33,249 bases of DNA, taken from the NCBI GenBank assembly GCA_017448795.1, contig JAFSKV010000082.1, positions 1 to 33,249 of the forward strand, written 5' to 3'. Positions 16,644-19,078 of the stretch are shown here, one piece after another. Below the pieces are notes generated by a model, which was not told where the DNA came from, made no database searches, and was given only the letters and a program-made list of their open reading frames with translations. Positions within the stretch are counted from its first letter, which is position 1. Every line of letters begins with the position of its first letter. A program made the position numbers and the translations under genes. The DNA is from Synergistaceae bacterium (GTDB lineage: Bacteria > Synergistota > Synergistia > Synergistales > Aminobacteriaceae).

Positions 16644-17258
16644 TTACTCGTTGCTGACTTCCTGCATTCCGCTGAAACCTGCCGGGTCTCTCATGCCGCC
16701 CATTCCTCCGGGTTCCTGCATTCCGCCGAATCCTCCGGGCATTCCCTGGGGAGGCTGGGGCATATCGCCGTCTGACTCGTCAGGCTTTGCGGGAGGCTCT
16801 TCACCTGCTGGGATTTCGGGCATTTCACCGGGACGCTGTGGGACTCCGTCAATTCCTTCCTCACCTTCGGGCTTCTCAGGGGGCTCTTCACTTTCCGGGA
16901 TTTCCGGGAGCTGGTCGGGCATCTGTCCTCCGGGCATTCCGTCAAGGGGTTCGGGCATGTCGTCGGGCTTCTCCGGGGGGGTCTCTCCGTCAGGCATTTC
17001 TGGCATCTCCGGCATCTCGCCGCCTGGCATGTTGAACGGCATATTGACCACGCCGTTGAACCCGCTGAAGCCGCCGGGCATCATCTGGGTCTGCTGTGTC
17101 TGCTGGGACTGCTGGAGGCCGCCTGCTGTCATTCCCTGCTGGCTGTTCATGTTGCTCTGGAGGGCTGTGCTGAAGCTGGGGGTGTTATTGCGGATATTGC
17201 TCTGTCTCTGGGAAGCCTGGAATACTACTGAGTTGCTATACTGGTTTACGCGCACCAT
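16644..17258 (-). CDS. Pro/Met/Gly/Glu-rich low-complexity hypothetical protein
   Basis: The 204-residue product begins MVRVNQYSNSVVFQASQRQSN, a Gln/Asn/Ser-rich non-repetitive N-terminus. A Gln-rich stretch (LQQSQQTQQTQ) and a long Pro-Glu-Met-Gly region with units such as GEMPEMPEMPDGE, EPPEKPEGEEG and GGMQEPGGMGGM follow. It has no signal peptide or membrane helix and is probably disordered. I do not recognise a family. The minus strand is favoured over the long plus-strand frame across the same DNA because a bidirectional terminator follows at 16604-16637, a promoter-like pair lies at 17335-17363, and the N-terminus looks like normal protein. The ribosome binding site (GGAG, 13 nt upstream) is weak, so the gene could be spurious. 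Confidence 0.55.
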   Translation of the reverse strand: MVRVNQYSNSVVFQASQRQSNIRNNTPSFSTALQSNMNSQQGMTAGGLQQSQQTQQTQMMPGGFSGFNGVVNMPFNMPGGEMPEMPEMPDGETPPEKPDDMPEPLDGMPGGQMPDQLPEIPESEEPPEKPEGEEGIDGVPQRPGEMPEIPAGEEPPAKPDESDGDMPQPPQGMPGGFGGMQEPGGMGGMRDPAGFSGMQEVSNE

Positions 17259-17363: not shown

Positions 17364-17409
17364 GATGGAAGCACCTGGACGTGAAAATGGCCATGAAAAA
17401 AGCAAGGTG

Positions 17410-17418
17410 TGCTATAAT
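17410..17418 (+). promoter_or_regulatory. Extended -10 promoter for the sorting-signal protein
   Basis: TGC-TATAAT matches the extended -10 consensus exactly. It would give a leader of about 140 nt before the ATG at 17566; that leader holds no recognised element. With the minus-strand promoter above, it accounts for the 307-nt gap between the two divergent genes. Confidence 0.5.
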
Positions 17419-17565
17419 TATTTTATTCAGGAATAGTTATTGCACATGGCGAGAAAGAATCCCGTCTCCCTTGCTTTATGTTGCTATTATACCATAACCC
17501 AAGGGGACGCGGTCATGTGTATTGTGGATTTTGCGGCAAAACAATTCATGACTGGAGGAGATAGC

Positions 17566-17858
17566 ATGAAGAAGTATGCGGTGATGGTGCTGGCTGTAAT
17601 GCTGGTTGGGGTCATGGCGGCGGGTGCGTGGGCAGTCAGTAGCGTATGGGAAAATGAAGTAAGTGCTCCAGATGATGTGAAAATTTCACAGGATATTGAC
17701 ACAGAGGCCACGTACATATACGACGCAGATGGTGGGGGGGGGAGGAAGACGGTGATGAGTATCGTACACCTATCTTTGACAATGGCTGTAACTCATGTTT
17801 CTCCATTCTCAGCCTTATTCTTACGTCTCTGATCCTTCTCAGGAAGTCCCACAGGTAA
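17566..17858 (+). pseudogene. Short exported protein with Synergist-CTERM-like sorting tail, frameshifted at a G9 run
   Basis: ATG 17566 has GGAGGAG 5 nt upstream and opens a signal peptide, MKKYAVMVLAVMLVGVMAAG then AWA. As written, the frame passes through nine G (17734-17742) and ends at 17832 in a meaningless tail. With one more G, or two fewer, it continues as acidic EEDGDEY, then DNGCNSCFSILSLILTS, then LILLRKSHR, stopping with TAA at 17856-17858. That end (Gly-Cys-Asn, hydrophobic helix, Arg-Lys cluster) has the layout I recall for the Synergist-CTERM protein-sorting domain. The full product would be about 97 residues, exported and processed or anchored at the envelope. The change may be real, phase-variable, or a sequencing error in the homopolymer. 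Only the sorting tail is recognisable, so the function is unknown. Confidence 0.75.
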
Positions 17859-17870
17859 CACACACAACAA

Positions 17871-17903
17871 ATCCCCCGGCATGTCCGCGACCGGGGGATT
17901 CTT
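17871..17903. terminator. Bidirectional terminator between convergent genes
   Basis: ATCCCCCGG (17871-17879) pairs perfectly with CCGGGGGAT (17891-17899) around 11 nt, followed by TCTTT on the plus strand and TTGTTG on the minus strand. It separates the sorting-signal gene from argD. Confidence 0.75.
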
Positions 17904-17917
17904 TCACTCTTCACACT

Positions 17918-19078
17918 CTACGCGCAGCACTTCTTGATGACTTCTGCGGCCTTAGCGAGCAAGTCATCCGGGATATTCAGCGCAGGCAACAATCTCACCC
18001 TGTCCTTCGCTGTCAAACACAACACTCCCTCAGCAATGCACGCGTTCACAACATCCTTCGCGGGCTTCGTGGTCTTCAGCCCCATCATCAGCCCCATTCC
18101 AGTAACAGCCTCAATTCCCGGAACCCCGGTGAAAGCCTCAAACAGGAACTTGCTCTTGCGCCTGACCCCCGCCAGAAGCTCATCATCAATCCGTCCGAGA
18201 ATGCTGACTCCTCCCGCGCAGGCTACAGGATTCCCGCCGAACGTTGAGCCGTGATCCCCTGGCTTGAGCGTGTCCTTGACCTTTTCCCCCAGCAGCGTAG
18301 CACCAAGAGGCAATCCCCCCGCGAGTCCCTTTGCGGTTGAGACTATATCAGGCTGAATGCCGTAGTTCATGTAGCTGTAGAGCTGGCCTGAACGCCCGTT
18401 GCCCGTCTGTACCTCGTCAACGATAAGCGCAATGTCATTCTCACGCGCGAACTCAGCGACTCCCTTCACGTAGCCAGCATCAAGAGCGACGACTCCCCCT
18501 TCTCCCTGGACGCACTCAATCATGATGGCCGCGGTCTTGTGAGCGTCAGCAAGAGTCTTCATGTACTCCAGATTGTTGGCTTCAGCGTGGACAAAGCCCG
18601 GTGTCAACGGCCGGAAAAGCTCGTGATAGTGATCCTGCCCGGTAGCAGACAGCATAGTGATTGTGCGACCGTGAAAGCTGTTCTTGAGGGTGATTACCGT
18701 GCTGTAGTCCGGGCCTTTCGTGTCGGCGGCGTATTTCCGGGCGACTTTGACCGCGCACTCGTTGGCCTCGGCTCCTGAGTTCGAGAAGAAGACCTTGCGC
18801 ATTCCCGTTCGTGTGCATAACATTTCGGCGAGCTTTGCGCACGGCTCTGTGTAGAACAGGTTGGACATGTGCTGAATCTTCGCGGCCTGCTCACAGATTG
18901 CCTTGTACCAGACATCATCGCAAGCCCCGAATGACGTTACCGCTATTCCTGACGTGAGGTCGATATAGTCCTTGCCGTCAACATCCGTAACGAGTGATCC
19001 TTTCCCGGCGGTGATTGTTACGGGGAAGCGGGCGTAAGTTCCGGCGACATATTCGCGGTCGAGTTCCTGAATGTTCAT
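17918..19078 (-). CDS. argD: Acetylornithine aminotransferase
   Basis: ArgD transaminates N-acetylglutamate semialdehyde to N-acetylornithine in arginine synthesis, and may also serve succinyldiaminopimelate in lysine synthesis. The 386-residue class III PLP enzyme shows DLTSGIAVTSFG, FFSNSGAEANECAVKVAR, SFHGRTITMLSATG, the PLP Asp in LIVDEVQTGNGRSG, the Schiff-base Lys in STAKGLAGGLPLGA, and GDHGSTFGGNPVACA. Length is normal. The ATG at 19078 has AAGGAGG about 12 nt upstream. It is the last gene of argC-argB-argD, 18 nt after argB. No argJ, argA or argE is in the window. Confidence 0.94.
   Translation of the reverse strand: MNIQELDREYVAGTYARFPVTITAGKGSLVTDVDGKDYIDLTSGIAVTSFGACDDVWYKAICEQAAKIQHMSNLFYTEPCAKLAEMLCTRTGMRKVFFSNSGAEANECAVKVARKYAADTKGPDYSTVITLKNSFHGRTITMLSATGQDHYHELFRPLTPGFVHAEANNLEYMKTLADAHKTAAIMIECVQGEGGVVALDAGYVKGVAEFARENDIALIVDEVQTGNGRSGQLYSYMNYGIQPDIVSTAKGLAGGLPLGATLLGEKVKDTLKPGDHGSTFGGNPVACAGGVSILGRIDDELLAGVRRKSKFLFEAFTGVPGIEAVTGMGLMMGLKTTKPAKDVVNACIAEGVLCLTAKDRVRLLPALNIPDDLLAKAAEVIKKCCA

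Follow-up and report, generated by a model that had tools for sequence, protein, structure and literature searches.

An out-of-frame Synergist-CTERM-type tail behind a G9 run in a ruminant Synergistaceae genus: possible loss of a membrane anchor by slippage

Poly-G contingency loci are well known in Campylobacter and Helicobacter, whose genomes carry many tracts of G9 to G14 in glycan and surface-protein genes. Poly-G switching of a C terminus as such is already known from Helicobacter canadensis, in which a tract near the 3' end of a gene changes the C terminus only and variation in tract length was seen in reads (PMC2823697). The MYXO-CTERM/myxosortase system depends on a three-part tail with an invariant Cys, and loss of this tail releases the myxobacterial protein TraA (PMC11980579). 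Literature searches found no paper on Synergist-CTERM by name and none on poly-G contingency tracts of the genus considered here; among papers on phase variation that mention Synergistetes, none was about poly-G tracts in that phylum, judging by titles and the openings of abstracts.

The window, i.e., the whole stretch of DNA analyzed (33,249 nucleotides), is contig C75 of a 2.54-Mb draft genome in 86 contigs. The closest relatives of this genome are uncultured Synergistaceae from goat, sheep, and deer guts, deposited as MAGs, and the host genus is an uncultured ruminant genus of that family.

Gene layout and products by G count

The open reading frame at 17566 to 17832 consists, behind a Shine-Dalgarno sequence, of a predicted signal peptide and ~33 further residues leading to a G9 run. 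The features of the locus are as follows.

17410 to 17418, plus strand: TGCTATAAT, an extended -10-like element belonging to the common leader and the same or nearly the same in six aligned family leaders
17440 to 17565, plus strand: 5' untranslated leader with the Shine-Dalgarno sequence GGAGGAG at 17554 to 17560, conserved by DNA identity of leader plus signal peptide
17566 to 17634, plus strand: predicted signal peptide MKKYAVMVLAVMLVGVMAAGAWA, common to paralogues and orthologues
17635 to 17733, plus strand: mature N-terminal segment with Asp-Gly at its end, coding-like in codon usage (+10.6 bits)
17734 to 17742, plus strand: G9 homopolymer (sequence count), which determines the C-terminal frame
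17743 to 17832, plus strand: C terminus in the assembled frame (RKTVMSI...LFLRL, stop TGA), poor in codon usage
17745 to 17858, plus strand: sorting-type tail in the other frame, with an acidic linker, GCN (17784 to 17792), a hydrophobic stretch, RKSHR, and stop TAA
17870 to 17900, plus strand: terminator-like hairpin between the tail-bearing gene and the aminotransferase gene, conserved in sister species
17918 to 19078, minus strand: class III, argD-like aminotransferase gene (PF00202), convergent to the tail-bearing gene and used as synteny anchor

The DNA of leader plus signal peptide is 96% identical to that in the corresponding slot of a sister species and 95% identical to that of a paralogue on contig C86 of the same genome. 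No Rfam family matched the leader (17440 to 17565), and because a consensus promoter scanner gave no site, the promoter at TGCTATAAT is a putative one. Translation of the leader, which is open as a reading frame from 17440, was considered and rejected: homologues differ by single bases in the length of a T run, and since such differences disrupt the frame, the leader is taken to be untranslated. Past the signal-peptide region, pairwise comparisons gave no worthwhile match to the mature segment at 17635 to 17733, and Pfam and NCBIfam searches with the product and with the tail gave no usable match.

The run of nine G residues reported in the earlier note was confirmed by counting. With nine G, the product has 88 amino acids and ends in RKTVMSIVHLSLTMAVTHVSPFSALFLRL, and the tail is out of frame with the N-terminal signal peptide. 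With 7 or 10 G (two removed or one added), the product has 96 or 97 amino acids, ends in EEDGDEYRTPIFDNGCNSCFSILSLILTSLILLRKSHR (C-terminal end ...GCNSCFSILSLILTSLILLRKSHR), and stops at 17856 to 17858; with 8 or 11 G, translation stops after GGRR. The note was thus right that either change opens an acidic linker, Gly-Cys-Asn, a helix, and Arg-Lys. The order in this frame is GCN-SCFSILSLILTSLILL-RKSHR-stop, with a GC motif, a hydrophobic helix, and a basic end directly at the C terminus. The strong terminator that it had placed soon after the tail stop corresponds to the hairpin at 17870 to 17900 (−19.1 kcal/mol; z, −4.1), 11 nt past the stop of the long form.

In those sister species that have the slot, the aminotransferase is 92 to 97% identical. 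The window also holds, at 16644 to 17258 on the minus strand, a 204-amino-acid low-complexity open reading frame rich in Met, Pro, Gly, and Glu, for which Pfam gave no match; comparable low-complexity stretches adjoin the aminotransferase gene at three other loci (L087, L088, and L094).

Homology of the tail and the family around it

Several lines of evidence, from profile, synteny with homology, and codon usage, support the claim that the tail is a sorting tail of the Synergist-CTERM kind. First, an HMM specific to the genus, built on 46 other CTERM tails from the examined loci and queried against 8,755 stop-terminated reading-frame tails, gave 17745 to 17855 as its sole significant match (22.9 bits; E, 3.1e-5), still at 19.6 bits (E, 3.4e-4) when two syntenic homologues were removed from the model; the runner-up had an E of about 2. 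Second, the DNA encoding LRKSHR/S-stop, together with the terminator, is ~90% identical to its counterparts at the same slot in the sister species G028 (60/65 positions) and G003 (65/72). Third, when codon usage over 17743 to 17855 was scored on the genes of the window, the tail frame received +1.3 bits versus −19.8 for the written frame, an advantage of 21 bits that is due in part to an internal stop in the written frame.

The curated model TIGR04564, proposed in the earlier note as a check on the restored C terminus, gave no match to 17745 to 17855 at E ≤10, and its search of the whole genome listed no match on C75; the syntenic tail of G004 scores 23.5 bits, above the curated cutoff of 22.5 bits. 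The silence of the curated model could suit a tail that is a chance hydrophobic stretch and no sorting signal. This alternative is extremely improbable: the tail is unique among the 8,755 with the genus-specific profile, and the homology of its RKSHR/S-stop and terminator in syntenic loci already disfavors chance. By these sequence comparisons, the tail is homologous to in-frame CTERM tails of relatives, and its reading as a sorting signal has support, although formal membership in TIGR04564 does not.

The conserved ends belong to a wider family. Leader plus signal peptide is 88 to 96% identical between the tail-bearing gene, the C86 paralogue, and genes of other species, and the cargo between the conserved ends is unrelated from gene to gene. 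Beside the aminotransferase gene, G028 has a full-length CTERM protein that is long, contains GLUG-like repeats, and ends in GGGGGGCNTFAGLTAILLAAITLRKSHS; G026 and G004 have full-length CTERM proteins with Ig-like cargoes and CTERM tails (both names were given by eye from the sequences, without a profile search). Roughly 200 to 450 residues precede the tail in the sister loci, versus the ~33 between signal peptide and G9 here. The tail-bearing gene is probably, to judge from these lengths, a shrunken family member whose cargo is down to a remnant.

Two further members have a broken frame and no tract. The paralogue on contig C72 of the same genome (L045:5561-5976), which is secreted and DnaJ-zinc-finger-like, has its CTERM tail out of frame with no intervening homopolymer, and in the G003 slot the tail frame is lost, again with no tract. 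Because codon usage in the tail frame of the present gene is acceptable and the Cys-helix-basic layout is intact despite divergence of the helix from those of the sisters, the tail may have been functional until recently.

As a separate observation, the leader plus signal peptide (~190 nt; 17380 to 17640 in the window) recurs nearly identically ahead of unrelated cargoes at six other loci (L056, L057, L058, L071, L072, and L079). In the syntenic slot, the 3' tail and terminator are shared as well. Cargo has seemingly been swapped between the conserved ends.

The G9 run among the poly-G tracts of the genus

The genome contains 156 runs of G7, 9 of G8, and 31 of at least nine G, versus about 0.6 of the last when expected counts are extrapolated from the drop in run number between lengths 7 and 8; for exact G9, 5 runs were observed and about 0.5 expected. 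The 31 long tracts are 9 to 14 G in length with a peak at 12, and the distribution of run lengths is bimodal. They lie in genes for capsule synthesis, glycosyltransferases, and sugar-modifying enzymes and also in those for acyl-chemistry enzymes (MBOAT and GDSL), LRR proteins, and lipoproteins, and the two sides of a tract are often in different frames. Four paralogous lipoproteins carry poly-G at the same Gly-rich place just past the lipobox, with 9, 10, 12, and 14 G. Runs of at least nine G were present in 43/43 genomes of the genus searched, and the tracts are rarer in 24 genomes from other genera of the order, which have 0 to 6 runs of at least ten G each. Given the genes in which such tracts lie, their presence across the genus, and their scarcity elsewhere, it is plausible that long G runs of this genome are mutable.

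Seen as a whole, the 31 places in the genome (among them L036, L039, L044, L046, L047, and L048) look like a large poly-G contingency system of the genus. Upstream flank words were compared for the tracts of G000 (L025 to L048) and G032 (L195 to L214). GTA-N4-TAC stands ~16 nt upstream of 10 of 49 tracts of unrelated genes (about 0.1 expected from shuffles), TTACTCTTGC or a near variant precedes the G tract in five, and in most the base at +1 is C or T and that at +2 is A. In G031, G061, and G016, these words are faint or missing; they may act in cis or reflect how the tracts arise. The exact 17-mer preceding the G9 occurs in six viral contigs of IMG/VR, which were regarded as chance matches.

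The earlier note had suggested that slippage at the G9 could switch the anchored form on and off. Under selected phase variation of this kind, a contingency G9 would determine whether one and the same secreted peptide is anchored in the membrane (G7, G10, or G13) or released (G8, G9, or G11). The abundance of long tracts, with bimodal lengths as in contingency loci, their presence throughout the genus and rarity in other genera, and the shared post-lipobox position in four lipoproteins all favor it, as do the C-terminal switching of H. canadensis (PMC2823697) and the freeing of TraA by removal of its tail (PMC11980579). With an expectation of only about 0.5 exact G9 runs for the whole genome, the run itself may be selected.

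The surroundings of the run argue against such a switch. The G9 is the shortest of the long-tract class, at its lower edge, and its flanks have a GC content of 0.58 versus a class mean of 0.36, like the flanks of ordinary G7 and G8 runs. The flank log-likelihood ratio for the long-tract class is −1.4 to −3.1 bits, which brings the odds of membership from about 9:1 by counts to between 3:1 and 1:1. No second case was found: in 43 genomes, no run of at least eight G lies within about 60 nt before the Cys motif of any other CTERM tail (search pattern GGN-TGY-RAY, which covers Gly-Cys-Ser tails only in part); among the 46 other CTERM tails, no G run within 150 nt exceeds 6; and none of the 89 other poly-G tracts is followed by a CTERM tail within 400 nt. 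The linkers of homologues contain no G run, and the position of the tract is not conserved. Poly-G combined with CTERM is therefore a single case, and poly-G before CTERM tails was rejected as a general device of the genus. For the suggested switch speak the richness of the genus in long tracts and a length that the background does not predict; the atypical flanks, the lack of a second case, the tract-free out-of-frame sister tails, and the remnant cargo speak against it. We regard selected phase variation as possible but doubtful.

Two other explanations concern the G9 as read or as expressed. It could be an artifact of assembly or consensus, with a true run of G10 (or G7) and an intact gene for a short CTERM protein. 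The genome is a draft of 86 contigs whose close relatives are MAGs, G runs become error-prone when long, a variable run yields one arbitrary consensus, and the tail frame is coding-like; short-read indel error is low at nine bases, which counts against an artifact and leaves it rather improbable. Alternatively, RNA polymerase or the ribosome might slip on the G run and generate both forms from one DNA sequence. Runs of at least nine identical bases are known slippage sites of RNA polymerase, but slippage of either kind is best known for A/T runs and no second conserved case was found; we consider it very improbable.

Possible anchor loss and comparison with known systems

We propose the following. 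(i) The family combines one common leader and signal peptide with exchangeable cargo and a tail of the Synergist-CTERM type, in which Gly-Cys-Asn/Ser is followed by a hydrophobic helix and a basic end. (ii) By analogy with MYXO-CTERM, this tail would hold the protein in the membrane, its Cys probably lipidated and its helix cut by a sorting protease. (iii) Slippage at the G run may have produced the present out-of-frame state and, because the tail would thereby have left the frame, the product would now be a short exported peptide without an anchor. (iv) The anchor could be regained if the run slipped again, to G10 or G7.

We judge it about as probable as all else together that the gene is a shrunken member of the family and that slippage, which may be reversible, cost it the anchor. 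The homology and frame of the tail, the full-length CTERM proteins in the same slot of sister species, the loss of cargo, loss of the tail frame without a tract in the C72 paralogue and the G003 slot, and a genome with long G runs that appear to vary in length argue for slippage loss. Against it count the signs that the tail was functional until recently, the low expected number of exact G9 runs, and the chance that frame-broken loci in draft assemblies are in part sequencing errors. A dedicated switch is less likely than a G9 state that arose as a side effect of slippage after the cargo was gone. A live switch would be a simple genetic means to alternate display and shedding of one protein and would offer a test bed for the uncharacterized Synergist-CTERM pathway. 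Even if the locus is decaying, it draws attention to a rumen genus in which the genomes of many species each hold numerous long poly-G tracts, seemingly undescribed in the literature searched.

Compared with Synergist-CTERM (TIGR04564), the locus has the N-terminal signal peptide, the Gly-Cys-(Asn/Asp/Ser) motif, hydrophobic helix, and basic end and comes from the same bacterial family; unlike it, the tail lies outside the assembled frame, has no Gly-Gly-Cys run immediately ahead of its Cys, and receives no curated-model score. With MYXO-CTERM it shares a three-part tail with Cys, but the phylum differs and no match of the tail to the MYXO-CTERM model was observed. As in H. canadensis, the tract lies near the 3' end and alters only the C terminus, whereas in the present gene the alternative tail would serve as an anchoring signal and the tract is known from one assembly, the comparison covering one genome per species. 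In contrast to the Campylobacter and Helicobacter contingency loci, the host is an uncultured ruminant Synergistaceae bacterium whose tracts share flank words, which the G9 at 17734 to 17742 lacks; in common with those loci, the genus has many tracts of G9 to G14 in glycan and surface-protein genes.
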